Shown piece after piece: positions 4,686-27,200 of a stretch of 30,258 bases of DNA. The stretch is taken from positions 1 through 30,258 of IMG/VR virus record IMGVR_UViG_3300037042_000738; one strand, given 5' to 3'. Below the pieces are notes generated by a model. The model did no database searches. It saw only the letters and a list, made by a program, of their open reading frames with translations, and was not told the DNA's origin. Each line of letters opens with the position of its first letter. Position 1 is the first letter of the stretch. Both the position numbers and the translations under genes were made by a program. The stretch is from a virus.

Positions 4686-4686
4686 T

Positions 4687-8633: not shown

Positions 8634-11291
8634 ATGGCTTCATATACCGATATTATCCCAAAGTTTAACCCCTACATCCAGCAGCTTCCTGTGGAAGCTA
8701 TGGTGAAGGTGGGTATGGAGAAGCAGAAACGCTATGATGAAGGCGTTCAAAAAATTCAGTCCCAGATAGATAATATTGCTGGTATTGATATTGTTCATGA
8801 TGCTGATAAAGCATATCTGCAATCAAAGCTCAACGAACTGGGAAACAACCTGAGAACGGTTGCAGCTGGTGATTTTTCTAACTTTCAGTTAGTTAACTCA
8901 GTTGGGGGCATGACTAATCAAGTTATCAAAGATCCATTTGTCCAAAATGCTGTTGCTTCTACGGCTAATCATAGGAAGAACATGGAACAAATGGACAAGG
9001 ATGCTGCTGAAGGAAAGCTCACTCCTGATAACAAATGGTTTTACGAAAACCAGTTTTCAAGCTATTTGAAGTCTCCAAAGGCTGGACAGTTATTTAGCGG
9101 AAAGTATATCAAAAACTATGATATTGATAAAGATATACTAGAGATGGTAAAGGCTGCTCATGGTGATGAGGCTGAGTGGGAAGAACAAGCTAGAAATCCT
9201 GATGGTAGTATCAATGCTGATATACTGGTTGAAAAATCTAAGAAAGGACTCCTTTCTCCAAAACTTAGAAATATTGTAGATACAGTTTTCTCAAAGCCAC
9301 AGGTTCAACAACAGTTGATGATCTCTGGACTTTATAATTATAAAGACTACACTCCCCAGGATTTATTAAAAACACAGGATGTTTCTCTTCAAGCTCTTAC
9401 AGATAAAGCTATGAAGATGAGAGAACAGTATGCTGTAGTTAGTGCAGTTAATTCTAAAGATGCAGCAGATGCTGACAAAGCTATTGTAGCAATTGATGAT
9501 CAAATTAATAACTATAGAGAACAGTATAATAGATTTGTTGAGAAATTGAATAATAATCCTGAGTCTGCTAAGATTGAACTCTATTCTCAAAATCTTAAAG
9601 AAAGATATGTCTCTGACTTTTCTTGGGAAGCAAATTCTCAGAAAAGTAAGGTGGCTCCTCAATTTGATGTTAGTATCAGAAGAGCTACGTATGAACTTAG
9701 TGTAGCAAAAGAGAAGTTTGATCAGTGGATTCAAAAGGAACAGCTTGATATATCTAGAGCAAATTTAGCAATTGCTCAAGAAGATGCTAAAAGAAAAAGA
9801 CTTATTGCTGAGGGTAAACTTAATCCTGATGGAAGTGCAAAGGTGACATTCTCTCTTGGAGCTGTTGATCCTGCTAAAGCTGCTGCAACTGGATCATCTT
9901 CTTGGAAAGACGAAAGTAAGGCACTGACAAATGAACAACTAGATCTTCAAACAAAACTCATCATGTCCCTCCCTGGATATGAAGATTTGTATGTTATGAA
10001 AGATGGTCAGCTTGTTCCAAATCGTGATAAGTATGGTGATCAGGGTCTGTTAGATAAAATGGGTGAAGCACTTGTTGCACTTAACAAAGCTCATTTGAAT
10101 GGTACAGTTAATCCTAATCTTAGAGGGGATGTTCAACGTTACTATGATTTGGCATCATTAACTTCACAGAGAGCTGTAGAAGAAAATGCAATTGAGGATA
10201 AGTTTAGACCTTTACTTAATCAGTTTGATAAAAATGTCAGAAGTCTTCCTGGGATGAAAGATTCTTTTGTAGTTGATTACTATGCTCCAAAAGAAGTTTC
10301 TGAGAGTCCAAAGCCTAGAACAATGACTGTAAACAAACAAGATATTTTTGACTACTATCTCTGGAAAAATTTAGATTCAGATAAAGGAGGAAGTGCAGCT
10401 AAAGAAAGAATTGTTTCAAGACATGGTGAAGATGGATTTTTTGGATTAAATCGTTTATTGAATCAAGTGTATAGAAACACTCCTGATAATAATCTTTTAT
10501 ATAGTCTTTCAGAAGGTATTCAAAATGCAATCACTGCTATTCCAAATTTAAAAAATAGCATGAATCAAAGAGAATCACAGTATAGAAATTTACAAACACA
10601 AAGACAATATTATTACGGAACATCAAATACGGCAAAACCAGAAGATAAACTTACTGTAAATCAAATATTTGCAGCACAAGTATCTGCTCTTACAGGTGAA
10701 CAATCAGGTGATTATGAAACACTCATTAAATGGTTAGATGCTACAAAACCAGAAAACCTGAACAATAATCTTTATGATCATTATAAAGGATCTGATGGTA
10801 AGTGGTATATTCAGGTGAGAAGAAATACTGGCGAAGGGAAATTTGAATATTCAGAAGCTCTCTCTGTTCCATACGATGTTGTCCAAAAACTTGGAGGGAA
10901 TTTAGATCCAAACGAGCAAGCATTCAATGATGTATTTGGTGGATTCCTTAATATATATGGATGGGACGCTACTGCAAAAGATGTTAAATCCAAAGATGCT
11001 GAATCTACGGCTGTTATGAGAGGTCCTGTTGGAAAATACTCTGTTGGATACCATCTTAAAAAATTTGGAGGTGGATATGTTCCATATGCCTACGTTAGAG
11101 ATTCTAATGGAAATATTCTTGCCAATGGTGTACAAGTAGATTTTTCTGTATATTCAAAAGATAAATCTTTGTCTCCTGCTCAAAGAAAGATGTTCTCAGA
11201 TGCTCAAACTATAATTAGTCCAGCGGATATGCTTCCCAAGCTTAATATGCTTGATGAGCACTTTTTTGATCTTCTGCTAAAAAATAAATAA
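8634..11291 (+). CDS. Helical virion cargo protein of crAss-like phage type
   Basis: An 885-residue protein with no enzyme motif. The N-terminal part (IIPKFNPYIQQLPVEAM, then a helical run ending KLNELGNNL and the phrase AAGDFSNFQLVNSVGG) is a type I recognise from crAss-like cargo proteins that sit next to the virion polymerase. The first 500 residues are mostly predicted helix with charged heptad-like stretches (about 270-400). The last 200 residues look more beta-rich, with GKWYIQVRR, then repeated Gly/Tyr/Val patches (GKYSVGYHL, YVPYAYVRD). It is the first gene after the promoter-like gap and is followed after 3 bases by the polymerase gene, so the two are co-transcribed. Likely role: an internal protein that accompanies or scaffolds the polymerase. 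Function is inferred from context; the gene itself is certain. Confidence 0.75.
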   Translation: MASYTDIIPKFNPYIQQLPVEAMVKVGMEKQKRYDEGVQKIQSQIDNIAGIDIVHDADKAYLQSKLNELGNNLRTVAAGDFSNFQLVNSVGGMTNQVIKDPFVQNAVASTANHRKNMEQMDKDAAEGKLTPDNKWFYENQFSSYLKSPKAGQLFSGKYIKNYDIDKDILEMVKAAHGDEAEWEEQARNPDGSINADILVEKSKKGLLSPKLRNIVDTVFSKPQVQQQLMISGLYNYKDYTPQDLLKTQDVSLQALTDKAMKMREQYAVVSAVNSKDAADADKAIVAIDDQINNYREQYNRFVEKLNNNPESAKIELYSQNLKERYVSDFSWEANSQKSKVAPQFDVSIRRATYELSVAKEKFDQWIQKEQLDISRANLAIAQEDAKRKRLIAEGKLNPDGSAKVTFSLGAVDPAKAAATGSSSWKDESKALTNEQLDLQTKLIMSLPGYEDLYVMKDGQLVPNRDKYGDQGLLDKMGEALVALNKAHLNGTVNPNLRGDVQRYYDLASLTSQRAVEENAIEDKFRPLLNQFDKNVRSLPGMKDSFVVDYYAPKEVSESPKPRTMTVNKQDIFDYYLWKNLDSDKGGSAAKERIVSRHGEDGFFGLNRLLNQVYRNTPDNNLLYSLSEGIQNAITAIPNLKNSMNQRESQYRNLQTQRQYYYGTSNTAKPEDKLTVNQIFAAQVSALTGEQSGDYETLIKWLDATKPENLNNNLYDHYKGSDGKWYIQVRRNTGEGKFEYSEALSVPYDVVQKLGGNLDPNEQAFNDVFGGFLNIYGWDATAKDVKSKDAESTAVMRGPVGKYSVGYHLKKFGGGYVPYAYVRDSNGNILANGVQVDFSVYSKDKSLSPAQRKMFSDAQTIISPADMLPKLNMLDEHFFDLLLKNK

Positions 11292-11294
11292 GAC

Positions 11295-14200
11295 ATGGCT
11301 TTACCAGATGAGCAAATAATAAAGAATACTGAAGGTGGGATTCCTGATCCTACAGCCAAACCTTTTATAACATATCCAAGCAAGTTTTCCCCTGCTCCTT
11401 TGGATATTGGTACTAGTGGTGCTGATGGTGGTCAGAGTTCTATTCTTAATACGGCTTTGTTCCTTACAAATCCTATTCAGAAAAATTCTAGACTCAATTC
11501 TGGGAGCTTTGTTACATATAACCCAAATGATATTGATCTTTCTGGTAGATATGATAGATGGATATTAGGAGCAGATAATGAAGACCTTTCTGGAAAACTT
11601 CAATCAGGTTGGGATCAAGCAGCTAATGGTTTGCTCAAAGGATTAGGTATTGCTGGTACAACATTTCTTCAGGGTACAGCTGGGCTAGTCTATGGGCTTG
11701 GTGCAGCAGTTGGTCAAGGAGAACTTAATAAATTCTACAATAACGACTTTTCAAATTTCATGGCTGATTTGAATAAGTCAATGGAAACAGCTCTTCCTAA
11801 CTATTATACTGCTGTTGAAAGAAATGCAAACTGGTATAGTCCAGACAACTGGTTCACTGCAAACTTTTTCTGGGATAAGATTATTAAAAACCTTGGTTTT
11901 TCTGTAGGAGCCCTTGGATCTGGTGCTGCTGTAGCAGGTGCTCTTTCTAAAGTTCCCACGTTATTTGGATTGTCTAAAGCAGGAATGATTGGTAAAGTGA
12001 GTGCTGCTCTTGAAGAAGGACTTGCTGGTGTTCCTCAGATTGAAAGAGCTGCTAAGGCACAGAGCATTATTATGGAGAATGCTAAGCTTATTAATACAAT
12101 AAATAAGCTAAGTACTGTTGAGAGAGGTGTAGTGGCTGGACTTTCTGCTGCTACAGAAGGCGGTATTGAAGCTCTCCAAGGACTTAATGATTATAGAGAT
12201 AAGTTAATTGATCAATATAGAAAAACATTTGGAACAGATCCTGTAGGTGAAGATTTAAATGCAATTAATGAAAAAGCAGAAGATCTTGGTAATGCAAGGT
12301 TTGGATTGAACATGCTCCTATTGACAGGAACAAACTATATTCAAATTCCTAGAATCCTTGGTGGTTCATATTCTGCTGGTAGAAACAATCTTGTAAACGC
12401 TGTTCGTAATAATTTTGAAAAAGGGATGTTGGAAAGTGCTCTTCCAACAAAAGGATTTCCAAAACTTCTTTACAAAGCAAAAAATGTAGCTGGTCTTTTT
12501 ATCTCTCCTACAGAAGGATTTGAAGAGGGGGCTCAGTATGCTATCGAAAAGGGTGTTGAATCCTATTACAATAAAAAAGACTATTCTAAAGATCAATCTC
12601 TCAACCAGTTCATTAGTTCATTAAGTGATGCTGCTGGAGAGGGAATTAGATCAGTTGCTGATAAAGAGGGCATGGAATCCGTGCTAATTGGAGCACTCTC
12701 TGGAGGAATTCAACAGGCTGGTTTTGTTGGAAGATATACCACTCCTGAGGGTAAAACATCTTTTGGTTTTGGTAAGTCTGGGGAACTAGCAGAAAGAGGA
12801 TGGACAGGATATGGTGGGGCTCTTGCTAAAAATACAGCTGAGTTAGCAAAAGCTGCTCCTTTTACACTTAAGGGAGATAACTGGCTAAAGGATAATATAG
12901 ATGCTACAAAAAGAGCTGTAGTATTACAAGAGGAGTTTGATAAACAAGTGAGACAAGGTGATTTCCTTGAAGCTAAGGACAATCAGTTTGACTACCAGCA
13001 TAACTATCTCACTCCTAGAATTAAATATGGCAGATTTGATCTAGTGATGGATGATATTTCTTTCTATAGATCCACTGGTGCTACACAAGAAGGTCTTGAT
13101 CAATTGAAACAAAAAGGTATTGCTTCTGAACTTGATACAATTGAAAGCTTTGGGCAAAGACTGAATAATTTTAAAAATCATGCCACTCTTGTAAAAACTT
13201 TACAAGAAACATATAAACTTAGCTATGGATCATTAGTAGATAAAACTACTAATAAGCCTTTATATTCTGATGAGGCTATTGACAAGATGGTATATGCAGC
13301 AGCAAAGATTGCTGACTATGATAGAAGAATTCCTGAGATTTCAGCCAAGCTTGTAGATGCTGGAATTAATGTTACAGAGATTGTTGAAAGTGTCCTCACT
13401 GGTAAACCAGAAGCAAAACAACTTATAGAAGATGCTTTTAGTAAAATTGATAAAATAGAAACTCCTGGGTTAGCAGATGAGTTGAAGGTGTCTTTGGAAG
13501 ATGTTAACGAACTGTCTCTTCGTAGAAAACAGTTCTTGAGTGATTATAATGATATTAAAGCTAACCCTCTTAAATATACAACTAAGACTGCCACTCCTGC
13601 TGATCCTACGGTCACTGGAGAAACTATCACTATCAAAACTGTAGATGGTGAAAAACAAGTTGCTGTAGGAGAAAGATATGTTGGTGGATCTAAAGAGATT
13701 CAAACAAAAGAGGGTGTCACAATCAATAAGTTTACAGAGTTTGATGTAGTTGGAACAAATGATAAGGGTGATATAGTTATTAAGACTCTTGATGGAAAAA
13801 TCCATAATGTTACACCAAAAGCATTTGAAGAATATGGGCTTGCAAAATCTTCTGAGCTTGGTCGCACTGGAAGATTTTATATTGACAACTCTGACAAGAT
13901 TTTTAACTTTAGAAAGAAGGGTGGTAAAGAGATTCCTGGATATGTTGTGTACGACAAGAAGACTAAAACACTATTCTTTGAATCTATTGAGAAAAAACCA
14001 AACGGCAATCCTGTAAGCAGAATTCCTGTAAAGCTTGAGCAGTTTCAAGTTCAAGAAGGATATTCAAGACCTCAGATTTGGAGCAATCAAAGATTTTCTC
14101 CAGAAACAGAAGCATTACTTCAAGAAGCTCCTACACAGGAAGAGAAAGATGCTGAGGCAAACCTTGAGCAAAAGCTCAATTCTAGAAGAGCCATCATTAA

Positions 14201-17200
14201 GGAAATCCATGATGATGCTAAGGAAAGAATTGAATCTATTGATAAACAAATCACCTCTAAGAAAGAAGAACTCGCTAAGATAAATGAGGATCTGAAGGAA
14301 CTTGGTGAGGTGAAAGTGGCTGAGGCAAAGACCAAAAGAGAGAAAGCTCTTGAGGCAAAATACCCAGAACTCAGCAGACAGAAGATTAGATTTTCTAAAG
14401 TTTTCTCTAAGACAAGTAGAGCTCTTTTGAAGCTTGCTCGTTTGAAAGAAACACTACAAGATGAAATAGCACAGCTTGAAGGTGATAAGGATAATCTTGA
14501 AGCAAACGTTACATACTTTGAAGATTTCTTGCAGAATATGCGAGAGCTTCCAGAGAATGTATTTGATTTGGTTCAGGAGTTGAAAGATCAGGTTGAAGGA
14601 CTAAAAGATCTTACAAAGTCTACAGGTAAGCAGATTGTTCAGCTCAATGAGATGTCTGATGACATTGATGAAACTCTCAGAGATCTAACCAAATGGCTGA
14701 AGGATGCTCTTCAAAAGTTTGATAGTGAGTATCCTGCAGACATCAGAGATAGAGCTCAGAAGATCATTGAGTCTAAGACAATCTCCTTCCTGGAAGTAAG
14801 TGCTCTAAAAGATGCTATTTCTGACTATGCACTTATACAAGATCTGACTAAGGAGGTTTCTGTAAACCAGGGAATTCTTGATGAGGTGACGGCTAGCTTA
14901 GAAAAGCTAACAGAAAAGCTTGATGAGGTTGGAAAAGAGCAACGAGCTAAAGAGATCATTCTCAAAAAGTTTGAAGATATTGTTAGTAGAGAAGTTAAGA
15001 GAATTAAAGAAGAACGTGCTGTTTCCAGAGATGAGGCTGTGATCAATCAGATCCTGGGAACAATGAACCAGGGTGTTCAGAATAGAGAGTACCAAAGAGG
15101 TTATGAACCTGATTCAAAGATGTCTGCTGTAGCTGCTGCTACAAGCACATCTGCTCCTTCTGAAAAATCATTTGCCACTACTAAAGAGGATGTGGCTGAA
15201 CATCATGCTAGAGCTAATCGCTTTGGAGCAAGAATGCCTAATCTCCCTAATGCTGGTGAGATCAAGGGTGTTATTGTTACGTCCGCAACAGAAGGTGACA
15301 TCATCCCTGGATTGACTAACCATTTGAAACAGGGTAAGGAGGAGATTAAAGCTGAGACAACAATAGCCCTTGTTATGGCTATTCCTAACAAGGATGGTAA
15401 AGGATATACACTTATTGATGAGAATGGTGTACCTATTGCTGAAAGAGCTGCAGATGAGTCTAATGAAGACTATCAGAACAGAATCTTGAATAGTGCCATC
15501 TATCAGACATTCCCTATTAATATTGAAAGTAGATTCAGAGAGAGCGTTCCTCAGGAAGTTAGAATGAAGCTTGTAAACTCCTATGATGAATGGAGAAATG
15601 AAAAGCTTGCTGAAACCACTCTGAAGAACTATGATGTTAGACCTTCTTTCGGATTCACTGAGAAGGTTCAACAGCCTACAAAAGATGGTTTAGGATTTGA
15701 GACTGACTATAATGCAAGGGTTGCTCTTCAAGATTCTGGTCTAATTACAGAAGATGACTTGGGATCTAGACAACTTGTATATGTCCCAACAACGGAAGAA
15801 ACAATTGCTCTTGGTTCTACATCTTTCACCAATGCACTTGGTAGAACTTTCCTCATCACTAAGAATGGATATGTTCCTCTGAATAATAGACAGCATACAG
15901 CTCAAGAAGCTGAGACCATCCATCAAGTGATGGTTCGTCTAGCTGAGATTATTGCAGAAGAGAATACAAAAGGTAAGTTTGTTTACGATCAATCCCTTGA
16001 GGCTCAACGACTTGTAAATTGGTTGAGAAGTGTCACCTATTGGGGAACTCCTAAAGCAGCAGCTGGATATAATAGTGTATGGTTCCAGAAGACAGATAAT
16101 GGACTTAAACTTTTCATGTCTGGAAAGACTAATGAGAAAGGAGAGAACATTCCCATCTGTGACTTTGGAGCTATAGCTCTTAATGAGAATAAAGGCATCA
16201 TCACTGGAGCTCTCCAGAAGATGTATTTGAATACAAATGCTAAAGCTACCAGTGCAGACTATTATAACGAGAGATATGAGCAAATAACAGGAGTTAATGA
16301 AGATGGTAGTGTAAGCTTTGTAATGTGGCCGAACTATCAAACCTATCTGCTCTCCAAGAAGAATGCTGACGGAAGTGCTAGAAATGGTGAAGAGATTCCT
16401 CTCACTACCAACATCAGACCTCTCAAGAACAGTGAAGATGTTAACAAATATGGTATCTATTTTACCATTGATGAGAAGAATATTGATAAGAGATTTACAG
16501 ACATTTCTCCTGAAGGAAAAACTGTAACCATTCAACCAGAAGGTAAAACAGCCCCCAAGGGTAAGTTTGTCCTCGATGGAAAAACAGAAAACTCTGCTCC
16601 TATACGCTCAGGAGAAGTTGAATTAGGTAATGTAAGATTTACGGCAGATGAGTCTGATCTGGATGGATCAGTCAAAATCCTTGCATCTACAGATGAGTCA
16701 CTGATCAATGCTGTTGGTCAGAAACTAAGAGATGCTGGTGAGGTAGATGATCCAGAGGTAGTCTTTAATACACTTGCTAAGGTTGCTCTCAAAAAGATAA
16801 GAGAGGATTTGGCTGCTGTTACAGAACAACAAGCTCCTGCTCCTACAGTTACACCCACCACTGTTGAAGAAGCTCCCGCACCCACAGCTCCTACAGCAGC
16901 TCCTGTTTCTAGTGTAGATGTTACTCAACAAAAAACATTATTTAGAGCTTTTGAAAAAGCCTTCTATGAAGGTAATGATAAAAGATACGAGAATATATCA
17001 GACGAAACTTTAGCTAAGCTTTCTTCTGCCACTCGTCAATACTTGTTGAATCTGTATGAGGCGTTAAAGCCCTACAACTCTACATTCCAGCGTCTGGGTA
17101 AAATTCTTGATACACAAACTAGTAAAGAACTTACTACTGATGACGAGAAAATAAAGTACGTCACCTCTTCTTACTTTGGTGGATTGGGTCGCGGGTCAAG

Positions 17201-20200
17201 TGAAATGGGTTCTTCTACCAATCCTAAACACAAAGACCTGGTGATGCCTGTACCATCTGCAGATGTACTTGGTAACATTAACGAGGTGTTTGGTGCAAAA
17301 TTAACTGATGCAGAACTAGCTGCCTTAGAAGGAGCTAAACCTGCTGCTCCTGCTGTTGAAACTGTAACAAAAGATGAGAACCAACAGCTGAATGATGCAT
17401 GGAATGCCACAGAAGGCAATCCTGACAATCCTGAAGAATATCGTGTTGTTCTGGATGATAACTATGATGAGACAGAAGACTTTGCTAAGTTTGAGGAGTT
17501 TCTGAAAAGAGCTCTCCCAACAGTTCCTGTATATAGAGTAAAGAACATGCTCAGAGGAGCTAACGGTGTTAGAGCTATGGGTATGTTCAAGAAAGCTGCC
17601 ATCTACCTGTGGGAATCTGCTGAGGTGGGTACAGGCTATCACGAGGTGTTCGAGGCTGTATGGAAGATGTTTGCCACTCCTAGAGAACAGAAGGCTATTC
17701 GTAATGAGTTCAGAAATAGAACTGGACAGTTCAAGGATAGACCTTCTGGACAGATGGTTAAATACTCTGAGGCTACAGATCAGCAAATCAAAGAGCAGCT
17801 AGCTGAAGAATTTAGAGCTTACATCAAGGATGGCGTGATTCCTCCTAAGCCTGTCAAAGCTAAACCATTCATTCTCAAGTTGTTTGCTGACATCTGGTCA
17901 ATGATTAAGGCTTTTGTCATTGGTTCTAATGCTCAGAGCAACACTGAAAGACTGTTTGAGAAAATCAACAAAGGCTATTACAAGAGATATACAGGACTAG
18001 AAAGTGCTATGTCCTATGCTAATGCTGGCATTATTGATATAGAAGATGCTACCATTACAGATGATGCTGAGCTTAGCGAGATCCCTGGATTTACAAATAG
18101 TGAGGTGCATGACTTCATGCAACAAATGACCTTCTTGGCTGTAGGCTTTCTCACTAGAGATAACAAGAGCTTGTTCAATGTTTCCTCAGATCTTACAAAG
18201 GCTGATGTATATGGTAAGGTTCAGGCTAACTTGATGGAGACATTCAAGAAGATTTCAAACATAGAGAAAGAAAGACTTAAGAAAGGGGAAATCACACAGG
18301 AAGCAGCTGACCAGAAGGAAGCTGATATGAGAGGCTTATTCAACAAGATGCTCCTCAACTGGGACAGTCTTCTTGAAAACCATGAGATCTACCTTAGAAA
18401 GTATGGTATTGAGTTTGATGAGAATGATGAGATGAATGTGAAGGATGAGAATAATACAGGTAGAGGTGAGTACGATGGATCTCATAAGGTGGATCATTTC
18501 AGAAAGATGAACAGTGCTGTAAGACTTGTTCTTGCCACTATGCCTATTTTAGATAATAATGGTAAGCCTATTCTTTCTCCAATTGGTGGAGTTAAGCTTA
18601 TGCCTGTTGGTGAGACATACATCTCCATCATGAATAGAGTACATGATTCTGTTGATGCAGATGATATGATGAACAGAATCAGAGAGATGGCTAAAGAGGA
18701 TACCAACTATGAGACCCTCTATAGAAGACTTGCAAAAGTATCCTCAGAAGATCTTCCCAATTGGGATGCTATGGAACTTGATGATATTAAGCTAGTTACA
18801 GCATTCTCATCTCAGTTCACTAAACAAAACCCTGAGGTGAAGGTGCTTAACATCCTTCCTATGGGAGGTGTTCAGGTGGGTGAAGCAAATCTCACCACTG
18901 CTTCCAGACAGCTTGAAAGAAACTATGTTAATGGAATCAAGACTGTTGCAATGAAGCCTGATAATAAATTCTTTGAATACAACTTCAAAGAGAAGGCATA
19001 TATTGCAAAGCCTGGTGCTTTTGATGGTGTAAAACTTACAGAAGATCCCGCTACATATGTTAAGTTCTTGGCTAATGTAGGAATTGAGTTTGACATTAAT
19101 GATATCATTAACCTGTCTGTAACCAATCCTGCTCTCTACACTAGATTTAGAGAAGCTACATCTGGTGTTCTGAAGAGTTTCAAAGAGCGTAAGAAGATTG
19201 TATCTTTCTCAGATCAGGCTCTTGATATCAAAGGACGCTTGCTAACACTTGGTGGAATCCAAGCAAGAATCAGTAATCCTGAGTTCTCTAGTACGTTCTA
19301 TGGTGTAAGCGGTGAGAAGCTTCAGACATTCATGGGAACCAATCCCAGCTTTGATCTGTATAAGGAACTTTCTAAGTTTCCTACATATGAATCATTGAAT
19401 GGTCATCCTAGATTTGGCTATCTGTATACAGACAGCTTTGCTCAGAACTCCGTGATTCTCAATGCTATATTCAACATCAATAAGGATACAAAGACTGGCT
19501 CTAGAAGACAAGGTGCTGAGGCTAAAGAATACATGAAGCCTGGTGTTGCAAATGGTACAATTAACCAGGTGAGCGGAAAGAAGAAAGAGTCTTCCAAACT
19601 TAATTTTAGAGAGCGTTTGATTCAGGAGATTAACATGAACCTGGATGGTTACTATTATAACCTGGTAGCTGGCGATGCTTCTCTGGAATATATGACCTAC
19701 ATGGGTAATGAAATTAAGAATGAAGATCTTGATCCTGGAAAGACCATTGTACAAGAAATCTTCAGAGGCTACCTGATTGATGAAATCAATCTGGCTAGAG
19801 AGAACAGACCCACTGTTAAATCAGCTGATTCTGAGAAGCTTAGATTCATGGATGCCATCCTTGGAAGTGAGCTAGCTAATGATTTACTCTCTCAAAAGGA
19901 TAAAACTGCTGAGCAGATCTATGAAGATAACAAGACAAAGATTGATAACGCATTTGAGAAATACATCAATAATTCTACAGAATCCTTCAAGAAAGTACTG
20001 ACACAGTATAGTATTATCTCTGAGGAAGCTGATGGAACCTTTGAGGTGAGCGATCTTGCATTTGCAAAAACTGGAGAAGCTTCTAAAGATGTATTGAATA
20101 GAAACCTTAAGAGACTGAATATCAATTACATAATTGCAAATATTGAGTTCCACAAGTTGCTTTATTCTGATCCTTATATGTACAAGGATGAGCTGAAGCG

Positions 20201-23200
20201 TATCAAAAACTTCCTGTCTCCTAGACAAGCTATTGTTAGCTCTGGTAATGTAAACACTGTTCTTAATAAGGTTTACAACCAGGGATATGAGAAAGGTGAT
20301 GTTGGTCACACAGACATGACTCAGACTTATTTTAAGTCTACCACCATTGCTGATGTACAGGGAATCATCGATCTTGAAAACTATGATGCATGGGATGAGG
20401 CAGATGGTGCTGGTATCATTTCATTCAAAGCTCACAGAAATCTTAGAATTCGTGCTAATAACTGGAGTGATGCTGATGAGGCTCAATACAGATATGATGT
20501 AGCTTGGGAAAAGCAACACAAGAAACTGGCTGTATCTAAGGCAGAACAGAAAATCCTTGATAAAGGAAACCCACATGTTAAGAGTGCCTACACAGATCAA
20601 AAGCCTATTATTTCTGGTAACAGAGCTGATGGTAAGAGCTACAATGATGTGATGCTGGATAAGCTTGCCTTATTCCCTCTTTCCTATCGTATAGCTGTAG
20701 AAATGGCTGAACTGGCTGGTCAAAAGACATCCAATGCTGTAAGACTGTATAATAAAATGCAGGAAGAGAACATTGACTATGCTGTCTTCAAGAGTGCTAG
20801 AAAGGTAGGTGGCACTGTAACAAATGAGATATATGATGAGAACGGTGTTATTACCAAAGAGCCTTTCAAGGGTGTAATTACTGTACCATTCAGCATTATC
20901 AGCATCCAGACAGAGGTGCCTTCTAAAGAAGATAATTTGGTAACCAGAGGATCTCAGATGACCAAGCTTGCCACTATGGACATGATGGAAGCTGGTGTTC
21001 CTATTGACTTCATGGTGGATGAGAAAGACTTCAGTAAGAAAATGGAGGCTTGGTACAAGATTCCTTCTGAAACACAAAAGAAGATAGAGTCTCCTCTGTA
21101 TGCTGAGATTAAGAATAACGAGGCTCTTCTGAATGCTCTTACAGAAGAAGGCTATAACATTGTACTTAAGAAGCTTGGTATTACAGAAAAAGATGGTAAG
21201 CTATCTGTAACAGATTTCAGCAAAGCAGCTAAAACTCTCCGTGATGAGATATTTAGAAGAGAGGTAAATAGCAATATCATCAAAACCCTGGCTGATTTCT
21301 TGAATGGTAAGGCTATTCTGGAAGCTACACCTGCTTATCAGCAAGTGAGAACCGTTCTGTATTCTATTATTGATAAGAATATTGCTTCTCCTAAAATGTC
21401 TGGAGGGCAGAAGGTACAAGCTCCTTCTACATTCCTGGAAGATATTAGAGCTAAGAAAGAAAAAGGTGGATATTCTTCTGATGTTCTCAAGTTCTATGAA
21501 GATAAAGATGGTGAACGTTATTGCGAGATAATGGTGGGCAGATGGTTTGATAGTCCATTGAGCGACAAGGAGTTAATGGATTATTTTAACAACACTGAAG
21601 AGGGTAAGAAAGAGCTTGCAGCTATGTTTGGTGCAGCTTTCCGTATTCCTACAGGTAAGCAGAACTATATTGAGCACTATAAGATAAAGCAATTCCTTCC
21701 TAGAGAAATGGGTGATAAGGTGATTGTCCCTTCAGCTCTGGTTAAGAAGGTGGGTTCTGACTTTGATATTGATAAACTCAATGTCTACCTAAAGAATGTG
21801 TATGTTAGAAACGGTAAGCCAAAGGTTATTCCTTTCTTTGGAATTGGTGAAGAGGCTAGACAAAAGCTCCAGAAGACTATTCTGAAGGAGGACCTAGAAA
21901 GCATTTTCAAACTGGATCAAGAGTTTCCTGAGACATATGATGTTTCCTATGACTCCCTGTATAAGAAGTCTTTGGAGAATGCATACATTGAATCTCTGGA
22001 AAAACTCACCTCTCACGAGCTCAACTTCAAACAACTCATCACTCCCAACTCATCTGATGAACTAAAAGGTATCTCTCAAAAGATTACCAAAAAGTTGGGT
22101 GTCACACCTTTTGAATCTGCAGCTATTGGTAACATCTTGGATAGAGGGTTTATGTCTAGTTTGAGACATGCATTTGTTACAGGTAAGTATGCAATTGGTA
22201 TTGCTGCTACAGCTCAAACAAACCACTCTCTGAACCAGCGTCAGCCTACATTTGTAGATACAAGAAAACGAAATTTACTTAATGAAAGAGACAGACCTTG
22301 GGTAGGTGATGGTAAATTGAAGTTTGAGAAGTTTAATAAGATTAAGATTGGTGGTGAGCTTTTTACATCCTTATCTGGAATAAAGAATGCTGCTGGTAAA
22401 TACATCTCTGATGTTATAGGTCAGTTTATTGATGGATATGTGGACATCTCAAAGGGTCCCTGGATCATTGAGCTTGGTGCTAACCCCAATGTGGCTGGTA
22501 CATTCCTATTCCTTGCTAAAGCTGGTGTACCTGCAGACACTCTGTCCTATTTCATGAACCAGCCTATCATCCGTGATTATCTGCGCTCTTTGGAGAATGC
22601 TGGACAGAGCTACCTGTTTATTGATGACAATGTTGAAGAAATTAAAAACAAGTATAAGGTTGCTAAATCTCAGGTGGATAAAATTACAAAGATTCCTAGC
22701 ACTGATAAGCTGTTTGAGAACATTGGAAAAACTGAATTTGATGCACAAGAGAAAGCAGAACAGCAGTTTATGCTTGACGAATTTTTGAAATATTCTAAGC
22801 TTGCTGAACAACTCTTGATAGTTCAACAAGGAACCAACTATGATACAGCAACACTAAATGATCCAATGTTAGTGTTTAAAATAAATGAGCTGTATGAGAA
22901 AGCTAAAACTTCTCTAATTTCCTCTGCAGAAGATATAATGAAAAATTCTTTCATGGGCGATCTTCGTAAGTTCATGAATAAATCAAGAGATGCTGCATCT
23001 AATTTCTTAGCATCTGATAGAGGAAGAGTGAGGTCTATTCTGGAGGATGTAATGAAGCCATATGTTACACTACCCAATAGAGACTTCCTTGCTGTATCCA
23101 GGAAAGCTGTAAATACCTTCTTTGACTGGGCTGTTCAAGTGTCTCAGAACAGAAATACATTCATTGAGTCTCTGCTTCTGTCAGATAAGAATGCTGCTAG

Positions 23201-24293
23201 TCAGGTGTTGGCATTCAAAAATGAGATTGCTCAGGATGAAAATCATGCCCTGCATAACAACTATATTATAGGAAAAAATGGTATCTTGCAGACAATTACA
23301 CCAAATAAAGCTGGTGGTGTAAATAACATCTCTGTGACGAACAAAGAAAACAAAGCATATGACCAGGATCAGATAATCTACTCCTTCAGGGAACTGAGAG
23401 ATCATCTGGACACTATGGGTAATTTGCAGCTCTACAAGAAGATTGTAGGAGTGTCTATTCTCCAGTCTGGTTTATCAACCACTCCTTATTCCTTCACATC
23501 CCTGCTTCCTTATGAGGACTTTGTAGAGATTTATAACGATGCTATTTACAAGCTTGAAATGTCTAGTGAGTTGGATGTCAACAAGTTCTACGAGCTTGGT
23601 GTATTCCAAAGGAACAACTGGCAAGATGATGACATTGTTCCTCAGCAGAGAGCTAAGATTAGTGGATATGACATGTACGGTTACCCAATCTATAATCAGA
23701 ACATGAATTTCAGTAAGATGGCTCCTGTTCAGAAAGCTATGAACAATGGTGAGATTCCCAAGCTTCTGAAAATATCTACCCTCTCAAATGCAGGAAGACA
23801 AGACTTTATTTCTTATTCTTGGGAAAAAGTTCCTGAAGGAAAGAGTAAAGGACAGATGCGTAAGGATGGTGATTTCTCTTACATCAAAAAGGGACTCTTC
23901 AAGAAGGTGTATTATGACAAGGAAAGAACAAAGCCTGTCACTACATCATTCACCAAGAAACTGGCTGATGGTACTACCAAGACATTCACCAGCTATGTTT
24001 ACCAAATGGTAAACGCTTGGGGAGATAGCTTCAGAGCTAATGAGCTGTATGATGTTGCAAGAGAGTCTGTTATAGATAATGGCTATGAGAAGGTGACAGC
24101 TGGACAATATCAGGTGGTGGGTTCCTATCTAGGTGAAACCTACACAGTGGATATGTACACCTCTCCTGAAAGAGATGACCAAGCTGTGGCTAGATTGTTT
24201 GGTACTGTTGTTGAAACTGCTCCTGTAAATGACACTACAGTTGTAAATGCTTTGAGAGATAATAAAGTCATAGATAAAAAATGTAATAGCTAA
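11295..24293 (+). CDS. Giant virion RNA polymerase protein (two double-psi beta-barrel type)
   Basis: A 4332-residue protein. The C-terminal third carries the crAss-like virion RNA polymerase core: a first barrel signature VTRGSQMTKL (3216-3225) and the metal-binding DFDID (3489-3493), whose three Asp residues coordinate catalytic Mg. Conserved helical elements follow (about 3630-3650 and 3705-3745). Earlier parts: Gly/Ala-rich hydrophobic segments (about 106-148, 198-231, 458-478), a beta-barrel-like stretch (about 771-930), a long coiled coil (about 950-1265), a Pro/Ala-rich linker (1847-1872), a second short linker (about 2014-2032) and a zincin-like domain with HEVFE (2116-2120) and E2171/E2172. 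In characterised relatives this enzyme is ejected with the DNA and transcribes early genes. It is about twice the length of the phi14:2 enzyme, so several delivery or processing domains are fused on. Its stop overlaps the next start by one base. Confidence 0.9.
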   Translation: MALPDEQIIKNTEGGIPDPTAKPFITYPSKFSPAPLDIGTSGADGGQSSILNTALFLTNPIQKNSRLNSGSFVTYNPNDIDLSGRYDRWILGADNEDLSGKLQSGWDQAANGLLKGLGIAGTTFLQGTAGLVYGLGAAVGQGELNKFYNNDFSNFMADLNKSMETALPNYYTAVERNANWYSPDNWFTANFFWDKIIKNLGFSVGALGSGAAVAGALSKVPTLFGLSKAGMIGKVSAALEEGLAGVPQIERAAKAQSIIMENAKLINTINKLSTVERGVVAGLSAATEGGIEALQGLNDYRDKLIDQYRKTFGTDPVGEDLNAINEKAEDLGNARFGLNMLLLTGTNYIQIPRILGGSYSAGRNNLVNAVRNNFEKGMLESALPTKGFPKLLYKAKNVAGLFISPTEGFEEGAQYAIEKGVESYYNKKDYSKDQSLNQFISSLSDAAGEGIRSVADKEGMESVLIGALSGGIQQAGFVGRYTTPEGKTSFGFGKSGELAERGWTGYGGALAKNTAELAKAAPFTLKGDNWLKDNIDATKRAVVLQEEFDKQVRQGDFLEAKDNQFDYQHNYLTPRIKYGRFDLVMDDISFYRSTGATQEGLDQLKQKGIASELDTIESFGQRLNNFKNHATLVKTLQETYKLSYGSLVDKTTNKPLYSDEAIDKMVYAAAKIADYDRRIPEISAKLVDAGINVTEIVESVLTGKPEAKQLIEDAFSKIDKIETPGLADELKVSLEDVNELSLRRKQFLSDYNDIKANPLKYTTKTATPADPTVTGETITIKTVDGEKQVAVGERYVGGSKEIQTKEGVTINKFTEFDVVGTNDKGDIVIKTLDGKIHNVTPKAFEEYGLAKSSELGRTGRFYIDNSDKIFNFRKKGGKEIPGYVVYDKKTKTLFFESIEKKPNGNPVSRIPVKLEQFQVQEGYSRPQIWSNQRFSPETEALLQEAPTQEEKDAEANLEQKLNSRRAIIKEIHDDAKERIESIDKQITSKKEELAKINEDLKELGEVKVAEAKTKREKALEAKYPELSRQKIRFSKVFSKTSRALLKLARLKETLQDEIAQLEGDKDNLEANVTYFEDFLQNMRELPENVFDLVQELKDQVEGLKDLTKSTGKQIVQLNEMSDDIDETLRDLTKWLKDALQKFDSEYPADIRDRAQKIIESKTISFLEVSALKDAISDYALIQDLTKEVSVNQGILDEVTASLEKLTEKLDEVGKEQRAKEIILKKFEDIVSREVKRIKEERAVSRDEAVINQILGTMNQGVQNREYQRGYEPDSKMSAVAAATSTSAPSEKSFATTKEDVAEHHARANRFGARMPNLPNAGEIKGVIVTSATEGDIIPGLTNHLKQGKEEIKAETTIALVMAIPNKDGKGYTLIDENGVPIAERAADESNEDYQNRILNSAIYQTFPINIESRFRESVPQEVRMKLVNSYDEWRNEKLAETTLKNYDVRPSFGFTEKVQQPTKDGLGFETDYNARVALQDSGLITEDDLGSRQLVYVPTTEETIALGSTSFTNALGRTFLITKNGYVPLNNRQHTAQEAETIHQVMVRLAEIIAEENTKGKFVYDQSLEAQRLVNWLRSVTYWGTPKAAAGYNSVWFQKTDNGLKLFMSGKTNEKGENIPICDFGAIALNENKGIITGALQKMYLNTNAKATSADYYNERYEQITGVNEDGSVSFVMWPNYQTYLLSKKNADGSARNGEEIPLTTNIRPLKNSEDVNKYGIYFTIDEKNIDKRFTDISPEGKTVTIQPEGKTAPKGKFVLDGKTENSAPIRSGEVELGNVRFTADESDLDGSVKILASTDESLINAVGQKLRDAGEVDDPEVVFNTLAKVALKKIREDLAAVTEQQAPAPTVTPTTVEEAPAPTAPTAAPVSSVDVTQQKTLFRAFEKAFYEGNDKRYENISDETLAKLSSATRQYLLNLYEALKPYNSTFQRLGKILDTQTSKELTTDDEKIKYVTSSYFGGLGRGSSEMGSSTNPKHKDLVMPVPSADVLGNINEVFGAKLTDAELAALEGAKPAAPAVETVTKDENQQLNDAWNATEGNPDNPEEYRVVLDDNYDETEDFAKFEEFLKRALPTVPVYRVKNMLRGANGVRAMGMFKKAAIYLWESAEVGTGYHEVFEAVWKMFATPREQKAIRNEFRNRTGQFKDRPSGQMVKYSEATDQQIKEQLAEEFRAYIKDGVIPPKPVKAKPFILKLFADIWSMIKAFVIGSNAQSNTERLFEKINKGYYKRYTGLESAMSYANAGIIDIEDATITDDAELSEIPGFTNSEVHDFMQQMTFLAVGFLTRDNKSLFNVSSDLTKADVYGKVQANLMETFKKISNIEKERLKKGEITQEAADQKEADMRGLFNKMLLNWDSLLENHEIYLRKYGIEFDENDEMNVKDENNTGRGEYDGSHKVDHFRKMNSAVRLVLATMPILDNNGKPILSPIGGVKLMPVGETYISIMNRVHDSVDADDMMNRIREMAKEDTNYETLYRRLAKVSSEDLPNWDAMELDDIKLVTAFSSQFTKQNPEVKVLNILPMGGVQVGEANLTTASRQLERNYVNGIKTVAMKPDNKFFEYNFKEKAYIAKPGAFDGVKLTEDPATYVKFLANVGIEFDINDIINLSVTNPALYTRFREATSGVLKSFKERKKIVSFSDQALDIKGRLLTLGGIQARISNPEFSSTFYGVSGEKLQTFMGTNPSFDLYKELSKFPTYESLNGHPRFGYLYTDSFAQNSVILNAIFNINKDTKTGSRRQGAEAKEYMKPGVANGTINQVSGKKKESSKLNFRERLIQEINMNLDGYYYNLVAGDASLEYMTYMGNEIKNEDLDPGKTIVQEIFRGYLIDEINLARENRPTVKSADSEKLRFMDAILGSELANDLLSQKDKTAEQIYEDNKTKIDNAFEKYINNSTESFKKVLTQYSIISEEADGTFEVSDLAFAKTGEASKDVLNRNLKRLNINYIIANIEFHKLLYSDPYMYKDELKRIKNFLSPRQAIVSSGNVNTVLNKVYNQGYEKGDVGHTDMTQTYFKSTTIADVQGIIDLENYDAWDEADGAGIISFKAHRNLRIRANNWSDADEAQYRYDVAWEKQHKKLAVSKAEQKILDKGNPHVKSAYTDQKPIISGNRADGKSYNDVMLDKLALFPLSYRIAVEMAELAGQKTSNAVRLYNKMQEENIDYAVFKSARKVGGTVTNEIYDENGVITKEPFKGVITVPFSIISIQTEVPSKEDNLVTRGSQMTKLATMDMMEAGVPIDFMVDEKDFSKKMEAWYKIPSETQKKIESPLYAEIKNNEALLNALTEEGYNIVLKKLGITEKDGKLSVTDFSKAAKTLRDEIFRREVNSNIIKTLADFLNGKAILEATPAYQQVRTVLYSIIDKNIASPKMSGGQKVQAPSTFLEDIRAKKEKGGYSSDVLKFYEDKDGERYCEIMVGRWFDSPLSDKELMDYFNNTEEGKKELAAMFGAAFRIPTGKQNYIEHYKIKQFLPREMGDKVIVPSALVKKVGSDFDIDKLNVYLKNVYVRNGKPKVIPFFGIGEEARQKLQKTILKEDLESIFKLDQEFPETYDVSYDSLYKKSLENAYIESLEKLTSHELNFKQLITPNSSDELKGISQKITKKLGVTPFESAAIGNILDRGFMSSLRHAFVTGKYAIGIAATAQTNHSLNQRQPTFVDTRKRNLLNERDRPWVGDGKLKFEKFNKIKIGGELFTSLSGIKNAAGKYISDVIGQFIDGYVDISKGPWIIELGANPNVAGTFLFLAKAGVPADTLSYFMNQPIIRDYLRSLENAGQSYLFIDDNVEEIKNKYKVAKSQVDKITKIPSTDKLFENIGKTEFDAQEKAEQQFMLDEFLKYSKLAEQLLIVQQGTNYDTATLNDPMLVFKINELYEKAKTSLISSAEDIMKNSFMGDLRKFMNKSRDAASNFLASDRGRVRSILEDVMKPYVTLPNRDFLAVSRKAVNTFFDWAVQVSQNRNTFIESLLLSDKNAASQVLAFKNEIAQDENHALHNNYIIGKNGILQTITPNKAGGVNNISVTNKENKAYDQDQIIYSFRELRDHLDTMGNLQLYKKIVGVSILQSGLSTTPYSFTSLLPYEDFVEIYNDAIYKLEMSSELDVNKFYELGVFQRNNWQDDDIVPQQRAKISGYDMYGYPIYNQNMNFSKMAPVQKAMNNGEIPKLLKISTLSNAGRQDFISYSWEKVPEGKSKGQMRKDGDFSYIKKGLFKKVYYDKERTKPVTTSFTKKLADGTTKTFTSYVYQMVNAWGDSFRANELYDVARESVIDNGYEKVTAGQYQVVGSYLGETYTVDMYTSPERDDQAVARLFGTVVETAPVNDTTVVNALRDNKVIDKKCNS
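14150..15090 (+). other. Long coiled-coil region of the polymerase protein
   Basis: Residues about 950-1265 of the 11295-24293 protein are almost free of Pro and Gly, very rich in Lys, Glu, Leu and Ile, and show repeated heptad-like patterns (for example IDKQITSKKEELAKINEDL). This is expected to be an elongated helical rod, either an oligomerisation spacer or a shape that can pass through a narrow tail channel. Confidence 0.65.
16833..16910 (+). other. Pro/Ala/Thr-rich flexible linker in the polymerase protein
   Basis: Residues 1847-1872 are dominated by APAPT and TAPTAAP repeats. This low-complexity, disordered linker separates the N-terminal 1850 residues from the zincin-like and polymerase half. 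A shorter AKPAAPAVETV stretch lies at about 2014-2025. Both are natural candidates for proteolytic maturation sites, though no cleavage motif is certain. Confidence 0.6.
17440..17980 (+). other. Degenerate zincin-like domain (HExxE) in the polymerase protein
   Basis: GYHEVFEAVW holds H2116, E2117 and E2120, so the second His of HExxH is replaced by Glu. Downstream EQLAEEFRAYI gives E2171/E2172 in the position of the usual third ligand. The helix-motif-helix layout is zincin-like, but zinc binding and catalysis are doubtful unless Glu can serve as a ligand. I recall the same HExxE form in related crAss-like proteins, which would argue for a retained structural role. Confidence 0.55.
20880..22630 (+). 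other. RNA polymerase catalytic core region
   Basis: Residues about 3196-3779 of the 11295-24293 protein. It includes GSQMTK with K3224 on the first double-psi barrel, then about 260 residues later SDFDIDKLN on the second barrel, with D3489, D3491 and D3493 as predicted metal ligands. The order barrel 1, insert, barrel 2 and helical elements is that of the single-chain crAss-like virion enzyme, related to the two-barrel RNA polymerases of cells and to eukaryotic RNA-dependent RNA polymerases of the QDE-1 type. Confidence 0.85.
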
Positions 24294-27200
24294 TGAGCTG
24301 CGTAGTAACATATAATAATCAGCAACTGCCAGAAAAGGAATTTATTGAAAAATATATTCCTAAAGAAGGTGAGATCATTGAGTATAATGGGATTGAATAC
24401 ATGGTTCATGACTCTTCTCGCTCAGGTTCTCAATTTTTGAATCAAGAAGCATTGTCTGAAGAAGCATATGATATACAGCAGCAATTGGTAGACACTGCTG
24501 ATCAAATACCTGTTTACAATTTAGATCCTGTAGGAAGAGGAACTGTTGAGTTTGGAGGAATTGATCCAATATTTAATATACCTCTGACAAAACTTTTACA
24601 AGACGGGTTTACAAAAACAGGAGAAACATTTGATATTGAAAAATATAAAAATGTTTTTGGAAAAGAATTAACTGATGACCTAGCCTTTCAGGTGGAAGGG
24701 ATGCCTGCTTCTAGAGCTGCTGAAGCTACACTAGATAAAATTAAAGAGGCTGCTGCTCAAATGGGCATTGATATTCAGGAACTTACGCAATATGTCAAGT
24801 CCCATCCTGAGATGGAAGATAGAGTGAAGAATGCTAATGGTGTGGCAGATTTGGTGAGAGGTGTTGTGGCTATTGCTGAAGGAAGAGCAGATACAGCTCT
24901 TACAGAGGAGATCGTGCACATTGCTAGAGCTATTGCTGAGCAGGTTAATCCTAAACTCATCACAAGCCTCATCTCTAAGATTGATAGATTCAAGATCTAT
25001 AAGCAAACCCTTGAGGCATATAAGGGTAGAAAAGACTATCAGCTTTCTGATGGTAAGCCTAACATTCGTAAAATCAAGATGGAAGCTGCAGATAAACTGA
25101 TTGCTGAGCTTATCATCAATAGGAATGAAGGCACTACAGAATATCCTGAACTTCTTGAGGAAGAAAATAGATCCTTCTTACAGAGAATGTGGGATGCTAT
25201 CCTGGATGTAATAAGAGGCATCTATACTAAGTCAAACATCAATCTGTTTGAGACAGTGGCTGAGATGGTAGAATCTGGTAGAGTGGGTGGTACTACAGCT
25301 GATTTAACAGCTGATGATGTATTCTTACAAGTTGCTGAGAATCAAGGAGTTAACAAGTTCTATGACACCATCATGGACTTTGCCAATAAAATAGTTGGTC
25401 CTGTTGATGCTACACCAACTAAAAAAAGACATTATATTTTTGATGGTGTAGAGGTGCCCCGCACTGTTACAGAAAAGATCAAAGAGGCTAAGAGTAAGAA
25501 GTTTGAGAGAACTGAGTTCGAGAAGAAGATGGATGAAATGAAAAGAGAATGGGGTAGTAGAGGACATATCTATCTTGAGGCATATATAAAGAATGTGCTG
25601 ATTGACAAAGAGGGTTATAAAAAAGCAAGACCGACACCTACACAAATTCAAACAGAACTTCCTGAGATAGTTGCGGAAAAGATCAGAAACTTTGCTGATA
25701 AGCTCATTGCATCCTATCCTGCTGGAACTAGATTCATTATTGAAACCAAAGCTGTAAATAACAGAACTAAGAAGGTTGCTTCTACATTAGACTTTATTGC
25801 TATTGAGCCTGTTGGTAAAGATGACTTTAAGGTGGACATCCTTGACTGGAAGTTTGCCAGTATTGATAAGAGTAGAGAAGAAGATGTTCCCTGGTTTAAA
25901 CAAGAAGAGTGGAATGAGCAAATGGGTGAGTATGCCAAGATGATGTATAGCTATGGCTTGAAACCCACACAGTTACGCAAAGCTAGAATGATTCCATTTG
26001 TTTCCAATTATACAAATGCAATCAAGGATGATCCCAAGAGTGATTTGCTCTTGACATCTATTGAGGTGGGAGATCTTGATAATCCCAAGAAAACCGATCT
26101 CTATCTGCTCCCTGTTCCACTTAATACAGAATCTACAGGGAGTGTTCGTGTTGACAATCTTCTGAAGTCCTTAAGACAACAAAGAGATAAGATATTTAAA
26201 AAATATAGTCCTGAGGAAAAAAGCTCTAAAATCTTGCAACTTAAAGAGATAGGTAAAGCTATTCGTAGTTTGCAGATGAAACTTGATTTCAGTCCTCTAG
26301 TAAATGTTGGTAAGACATTCTTGAATAAAGCGGCTGATGCATTTAAGTCTTTTGAAACTCTTGACTATTCCAAACTCTCTGAACAAGAGGTGAGAGCTAA
26401 GCTTGGTGATCTTATTGAATATAAAAAGAGTGCTGAAAAATATGCTGAGCTTGGTAAAGATTTCTTGGATGTATACAAGAAAGAAGACCTAGATGATGAG
26501 GCAAAGAAAACCTTAGAGTCTCTGGAAAAAATATCTTCAGCTACAGATAGAATGCTTGAGAAGATTGAAGACCTGCAAAAGGAGTTTGTTATCCAGCTGG
26601 CTATCAAAATGAAAGCCATCACTGCTGATGAAGCTGGTCAGGTGACACCTGAAACAAAAGAAGCATACCTAGCTGCTCAGATAGAAGTGAAAGGACTTCT
26701 AAATAGTTTTACAGAAGCCACCAGACTACCATCTAGACTCATTAATCTGGCAGCTCGTGCATATCTGGAATCTAAAAATATACTGAATGTCAAACTTGCC
26801 AGAATGATTAGTGAGTTTGACAAAGCATTATCACCTCTTCAAGAAGAAGCGTCAAGACTTGGTAAGAGTGCTTTTGACATGATTGGTGAGGTGAGAAATG
26901 GTCAGCTCAAATTTATCAGAAAGGTAGATCCTAAGTTCTATGAAGACGCTGCTGTGGCTAGAAAAGCTAAAAACAAGAAGTTCTTCTTGGATAATATGGA
27001 TATGACAAAGTTCAGTGAGCTTGCTAAACAGGCTATTGAACAAGGGGAGAAGGAACTTGAACTGATGGTTTTCTCTACAGATGCTGACAAAGATGCTATT
27101 ATTAAAAAATATAGAATCAAAAAGCTAAGAGACTCTATTGACATTAACAGAGATTCTTTTAACGGATTTGATTCATATGATTTCAATTCCATATTTTCAA

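Follow-up and report, generated by a model that had tools for sequence, protein, structure and literature searches.

How megadaltons of folded enzyme pass in order through a narrow phage tail is the question addressed here, and the systems closest to the locus described below are those of Cellulophaga phage phi14:2 and Bacteroides phage crAss001. In phi14:2, three separate genes encode gp67, gp66 and gp65, and gp66 is the solved crassvirus virion RNA polymerase (6VR4). The corresponding set in crAss001, gp47, gp50 and gp49, is likewise encoded by three genes, with gp47 on the strand opposite gp50/gp49; the three have masses of 262.5, 276.9 and 154.5 kDa, respectively, together ~694 kDa (PMC10172136). 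The crAss001 gp47 is a virion cargo protein. Modelling has the cargo of this phage exiting in a partly unfolded state, past constrictions narrower than 50 Å, and gp45, one of the cargo proteins, is expected to travel N to C; inter-subunit disulfides were resolved in the tail and portal-vertex proteins of the same virion (PMC10172136). The gp47/gp49/gp50 cargo was not resolved by cryo-EM.

N4-like virion RNA polymerases (vRNAPs) are T7-type polymerases. The vRNAP of N4, gp50 (3500 aa), resembles the protein described here in being a giant injected polymerase purged of cysteine, but has no end couplers of the kind proposed below; the cysteine-free state of N4-type vRNAPs has been ascribed to passage through the tail and the oxidising periplasm (PMC3715699, PMC3915230). 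In Thermus phage P23-45, gp96 (5002 aa) is also a giant virion chain, comprising a two-barrel polymerase together with membrane and metallopeptidase parts (PMC10770324).

Gene organization of the window

The window, that is, the whole stretch of DNA analysed, is an entire linear virus record of 30,258 bp; its seven genes are collinear and all lie on the + strand (features in Table 1). Searches of the 30,258-bp window revealed no tRNA and no Rfam match. The giant ORF, which has cysteines only at residues 1622, 3410 and 4330, is a single open frame, as an earlier note made from the sequence alone had stated, and is not an artefact, since the same fused frame was found in relatives. Judged by homology, it unites two neighbouring members of the crassvirus set of injected proteins in one chain, namely a gp47-like protein and the polymerase, whereas these are encoded by separate genes in phi14:2 and crAss001. 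The earlier note had taken the whole machine to be one polypeptide; the machine is not a single chain, however, because a gp49/gp65-like third component is encoded by the next gene, which is homologous to the crAss001 gp49 family (via cr108 gp52; phmmer and HMM searches).

The weak tape-measure profile match in the window belongs to the 1292-aa gene and not to the giant ORF, the polymerase of which forms the C-terminal half and is fused to gp47-like cargo; in P23-45 gp96, by contrast, it is the N-terminal part that is polymerase, and its fusion partner is a tape measure protein. The 1308-aa protein begins with MANKITCTCGHSWN (window 759-840), with Cys at 7, 9, 26 and 29, and this start is probably zinc-binding, in contrast to the remaining cargo.

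Table 1. Features of the 30,258-bp window and of the giant ORF
Feature	Residues	Coordinates	Strand	Basis or remark
1308-aa protein		759..4685	+	Weak similarity to phi14:2 g070 (tail/cargo), E 2.5e-5
1292-aa protein		4669..8547	+	Weak tape-measure profile match, phrog_167, E 5.5e-6
885-aa protein, no Cys		8634..11291	+	Upstream of giant ORF; resembles phi17:2 gp40, a structural protein of the virion
Giant ORF, 4332 aa, ATG start		11295..24293	+	Fusion of a gp47-like cargo protein with a crassvirus virion RNA polymerase
gp47-like half	1-2232	11295..17990	+	blastp to crAss001 gp47; phi17:2 gp39, E 1e-26
Gly/Ala-rich hydrophobic stretch LGFSVGALGSGAAVAGALS	200-218	11892..11948	+	Hydropathy scan; within conserved gp47 N-terminal region
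Lys/Glu-rich coiled-coil-like stretch	841-1260	13815..15074	+	Conservation 0.08-0.23, gaps up to 0.6
Variable linker	1801-2040	16695..17414	+	Identity 0.09-0.18, gaps up to 0.66; not the seam
Zincin-like domain	2041-2232	17415..17990	+	Final part of gp47-like half
HEVFE	2116-2120	17640-17654	+	Aligned to crAss001 gp47 YHEAFH
Fusion seam, no Cys	~2233-2266	17991..18092	+	Split relatives L087, L028 end/begin here
Polymerase half (gp66/gp50-like)	2267-4332	18093..24290	+	Sequence match and fold
GSQMTK	3219-3224	20949..20966	+	Conserved in core alignment
DFDID, catalytic metal-binding motif	3489-3493	21759..21773	+	Invariant in 48 relatives
Cys4330 codon TGT (...DKKCNS stop)	4330	24282..24284	+	Proposed C-terminal coupler cysteine
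gp49/gp65-like RNAP-associated protein, 1676 aa		24293..29323	+	Overlaps stop of giant ORF (TAATG); sole cysteine Cys3
Cys3 codon TGC of gp49-like protein (MSCVVTY)	3	24299..24301	+	Proposed N-terminal coupler, partner of Cys4330

The polymerase half

Direct searches with the giant ORF gave no match in PHROGs or among PDB sequences, sub-threshold matches only in Pfam, and no match by megablast against phages. A tblastn search with its last 2132 residues, however, matched 74 phage records, each at <60% identity, including phi14:2 gp66 (E 3e-13), which aligned to residues 2851-3761 (E 2e-19), and crAss001 gp50 also matches this half. We modelled the core (residues 2861-3860) from 48 relatives, with a mean pLDDT of 84.8, and found 6vr4_A to be its best Foldseek match (E 3.8e-26, TM 0.65), covering the two-barrel core fold, followed by the RNAi polymerase QDE-1. 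That the giant ORF contains a crassvirus virion RNA polymerase is thus settled: the GSQMTK and DFDID signatures lie exactly where the earlier note had placed them, and the kinship of the DFDID region with the crAss-like polymerase, which it had proposed, was confirmed by both the homology search and the 6VR4 fold match. The polymerase is not confined to the last third of the chain, as had been supposed, but its equivalent takes up 48% of it, since gp66, at ~2180 residues, already includes a long N-terminal part. As a member of the gp66/gp50 family, the giant polymerase would be present in virions and transcribe early genes.

The gp47-like half and the fusion seam

The long N-terminal protein to which the polymerase had been said to be fused is indeed present and is homologous to crAss001 gp47, which matches both of its ends: in blastp, residues 100-587 aligned to gp47 89-585 (E 6e-25), and residues 2091-2215, in the zincin-like region (HEAFH in gp47), to gp47 2132-2236, near the gp47 C-terminus. 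Among the parts described in the earlier note, the hydrophobic Gly/Ala segment was recovered by the hydropathy scan, and the coiled coil in part, as a Lys/Glu-rich coiled-coil-like stretch, at about residues 940-1160, with weak coiled-coil matches in Pfam. The zincin-like domain likewise stands as a motif region, but HEVFE is of the form HExxE and not HExxH; among 66 relatives, HExxE was found in 49 and HExxH in 17, whereas phi14:2 gp67 is without an HExx[EH] motif. A model of this region (pLDDT 74.5) gave zero PDB matches at E<=0.001, and no zincin fold was significantly matched. The label zincin-like is therefore used here as a putative one, drawn from the motif and from homology.

The earlier note had raised linkers at residues 1847-1872 and 2014-2032 as possible fusion points. 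Both sit within the variable stretch of the gp47-like part, before the zincin-like domain, whereas the split relatives break at ~2233-2266. Specifically, the leader (gp47-like protein) of L087 terminates past the zincin-like region, and the polymerases of L028 and L087 start at positions aligned to window residue ~2266.

Giant fusions among relatives

Giant fusions are common in crassvirus relatives and are of a kind already known. We found 101 complete fused giants of 3068-5322 aa among the relatives, and a scan of viral contigs yielded 80 loci, nearly all with a single long frame, of up to 5004 aa. Among RefSeq/GenBank genomes of Suoliviridae, giant versions measured 4461-5794 aa; the leader-polymerase fusion of the window is shared by cr50_1, cr118_1, cr56_1, cr115_1, cr4_1, cr53_1, cr10_1, cr55_1 and cr273_1, some of which are recoded, with many in-frame TAG codons. 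The RefSeq names of four of these (cr50_1, cr118_1, cr56_1 and cr115_1; L010-L013) are misleading, reading DNA helicase, exonuclease V and nuclear pore complex protein-like. The same fusion is present in cr108_1 (Steigviridae, NC_055878, L008), where it is interrupted by a group I intron (28375-28693; RF00028, E 1.8e-20) placed exactly in the catalytic DFDID codons; the record lists the two polymerase exons as separate hypothetical proteins, gp54 and gp53. In the Intestiviridae phage crAss002, gp33 (L104, 11243-23980; 4245 aa) joins the other pair, polymerase and gp49; it is probably annotated from a start 32 codons too far upstream, the likely true start being Met33 (MSCTPSN). A triple fusion of leader, polymerase and gp49, of 5005 aa, was found in L190 (2043-17060).

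Cysteines at the ends of the injected proteins

In the clade of the window, all 77 giants have a cysteine in their last six residues, and all 74 proteins that follow these giants have one at residues 3-5. Interior cysteine content is 0.023% in the giants and 0.008% in the next protein, as against 0.5-0.6% in other ORFs, and where a giant has exactly one cysteine, that cysteine is in the last six residues (35/35). We then curated 169 loci, in which leader, polymerase and gp49 were identified by phmmer and HMM searches, and scored a cysteine as N-end if it was one of residues 2-7 counted from any ATG among the first 40 codons, and as C-end if it was one of the last 35 residues, the majority being at -1 to -6. 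In this test, the counts of which are of related sequences and not of independent events, the leader had a C-end Cys in 39/40 and the polymerase an N-end Cys in 39/40 of the loci where the two are split, while fused leader-polymerase giants had an N-end Cys in 0/108; the polymerase C-end carried one in 160/161 and the gp49-like N-end in 154/154. The outer ends, which serve as a built-in control, had a cysteine in 0/37 (leader N-end) and 1/139 (gp49 C-end). As to the exceptions, L079 represents a frame break within the polymerase, and in L157 the polymerase is in two ORFs, the last of which nonetheless ends in Cys; three leaders carry their C-end Cys at -18 to -32. TAG-recoded genomes were excluded from the 169-locus count, and their annotation agrees with the rule except in cr273_1. 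Among the nine Suoliviridae giants, 8 have the C-end cysteine, that of cr10_1 being at -11, and the nearest Cys in cr273_1 is at -50.

Both described sets follow the same pattern. The three proteins of phi14:2, which share the order and the end cysteines found here, have four cysteines in 5398 residues, all at the two joints. In crAss001, all joints have end cysteines, in the peptides CNS (gp47 C-end) and CITTNSTIEELAAK (gp50 N-end) at one joint and ICGANTLYEL (gp50 C-end) and CAIIPQVR (gp49 N-end) at the other.

Other ORFs had a cysteine at the N-end in 14% and at the C-end in 11%, despite a cysteine content at least 20-fold higher. Chance or a start-codon artefact as the cause of the end cysteines is ruled out by this baseline and by the outer-end controls. 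The flanks of the polymerase C-end cysteine comprised 145 distinct 9-mers in 160, TGT and TGC codons both occurred, and the leader lies on the strand opposite the polymerase in crAss001, cr85_1, cr128_1, DAC15 and cr106_1. Since the flanks are unconserved, two codons are used and the leader can be on the opposite strand, the pattern is not an artefact at the DNA level, and the opposite-strand leaders of these five genomes also show that it is not a by-product of gene adjacency. What is new here is that proteins assigned to the injected set, which are nearly free of cysteine, keep cysteine solely at the ends that abut the next subunit. In the literature searched, which did not include Drobysheva 2021 (the phi14:2 structure), we found no earlier account of cargo end cysteines, and disulfides were described only in tail and portal proteins.

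Loss of end cysteines on fusion

We found that the cysteines of a joint are lost when the joint is fused. With fusion of leader and polymerase, the joint cysteines are lost; in the polymerase-gp49 fusions (crAss002 gp33 and L164), the C-end cysteine is lost and the N-end one retained; and the triple fusion has zero cysteines in its 5005 residues. On a tree of 145 polymerases, the state of joint 1 (leader and polymerase) changed at least 8 times and that of joint 2 (polymerase and gp49) at least 3 times, these being the independent changes, and the cysteines match the state. The break in L140 and L179 falls on the opposite side of the zincin-like domain; cysteines are still found at it, that of the L179 leader being at -18.

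One split locus, L028, is sister to a fused one, L071 (support 0.935), and its leader is without the zincin-like region. In L028, about 140 bp spanning the stop-start junction of leader and polymerase are similar, at the DNA level, to the junction of polymerase and gp49 (about 7800-7940 and 14250-14390), and the former joint appears to have been copied from the latter. When N-heads and C-tails were compared between the two joints of each genome, no general similarity was found, L028 being the only clear case.

The middle member of the set can also be replaced. Phages phi17:2 (L105, 20996-34500; a Lightbulbvirus that its record does not place in Crassvirales) and csAssE-Sib (L111, 15401-39488; an epsilon phage) keep the leader and a gp49-like protein, and in place of the large polymerase they have proteins of 517 and 752 aa, respectively, with cysteine at both ends, so that the end-cysteine rule still holds. 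These two proteins are homologous to each other (E 1e-7), and the N-terminal 77 residues of the csAssE-Sib protein resemble the gp49 heads of the window's clade (E 2e-12).

A proposed covalently joined thread and alternative explanations

Based on these observations, we propose, with a probability of roughly 0.68, that leader, polymerase and gp49 are joined by end-to-end disulfides or by fusion and injected as one thread. The set would be joined end to end in the fixed order leader, polymerase, gp49, and would exit the capsid as one continuous thread, leader N-terminus first. Each joint would be either a peptide fusion or a disulfide between the C-end cysteine of one protein and that at residue 2-7 of its successor, the two ways being exchangeable; in the window, joint 1 would be the fused seam and joint 2 a Cys4330-Cys3 pair. 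The disulfide may form once the virion has left the reducing cytoplasm and survive the oxidising periplasm, and the cytoplasm of the new host would then reduce it and release the polymerase. A disulfide doing the work of a peptide bond is the simplest reading, because the cysteines are found exactly at the unfused meeting points; a joint of the native chemical ligation type is not expected, since the cysteine occupies residue 2-7 and not residue 1. The disulfides resolved between subunits of the crAss001 tail, and the modelled exit of its cargo in a partly unfolded state, agree with this reading (PMC10172136). The end cysteines that were kept are conspicuous because crassvirus cargo, too, has undergone an N4-like purging of cysteine. 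Coupling of ends is not a general requirement, since the giant polymerase of N4 is cysteine-free and is delivered with no couplers (PMC3715699), and leader, polymerase and gp49 need not be present in equal copy numbers per virion, which counts against coupling.

The same cysteine statistics would apply if the ends made a subunit contact other than a disulfide, such as shared zinc ligands or docking that sets the order of packaging, and with assembly in a reducing cytoplasm the ends could conceivably serve in ordering before any oxidation takes place. We consider such a contact unlikely, however, as there are only two Cys per joint, the flanks show no conserved His or extra Cys, a metal site could be built only by bringing two joints together, and thiol pairing accounts better for the near-complete disappearance of other cysteines. 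Tethering of the ends to other virion parts (portal, tail tube or DNA end) would also explain the loss on fusion, with fusion removing the need for a tether, but the outermost ends are free too and carry no cysteine (0/37 and 0/108 for the leader N-end, 1/139 for the gp49 C-end), making this idea quite improbable. The least probable alternative is that the cysteines have no function, those at the ends being merely tolerated after purging from injected proteins. The cysteine-free N4 vRNAP does suggest selection for purging (PMC3715699, PMC3915230); yet tolerance predicts scattered survival, whereas four ends show ~100% and the two outer ones ~0%, with gain or loss of cysteine following the state of fusion.

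The earlier note had raised the question of how the giant is matured, and a polyprotein cut at linkers by the zincin-like domain or by a phage protease has in its favour that an HExx[EH] domain adjoins the seam. A seam cut before delivery, however, predicts joint cysteines there, and these are what the fused forms lack; the motif is HExxE in the window as in most relatives, with no zincin fold match, so that self-maturation finds no positive evidence; and the comparable fusion P23-45 gp96, of 5002 residues, is full-size in virions (PMC10770324). We regard maturation of this kind as very improbable, and the reading of disulfide or fused joints as the better one.

It also seems probable, though we hold this a little less firmly, that crassviruses and some relatives inject a covalently coupled train of proteins in which disulfide couplers are portable cassettes interchangeable with fusion; the apparently copied joint of L028 and the epsilon phages with similar heads on different proteins are signs of such portability. 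Should the joints prove to be disulfides, sequences alone would reveal in what order the cargo travels and that it does so in single file, the frequent fusions would be explained as a peptide bond replacing a coupler, and such joints would constitute a redox-releasable way of chaining proteins.

Additional observations

A scan with cr118_1 gave no matches, and scans with crAss001 gp50 and phi17:2 gp36 returned near-identical records only. The C-terminal part of the cr118_1 giant (L011, 11382-26222) matches Dda/RecD-like helicases of many phages and is thus an additional domain of the injected chain. In addition, ORFs beginning with MNKHIEAEGNEL (L152, 13194-16700) and MSKNIEVEGGEI (L148, 17649-19370) were found in or adjoining interrupted polymerase genes.
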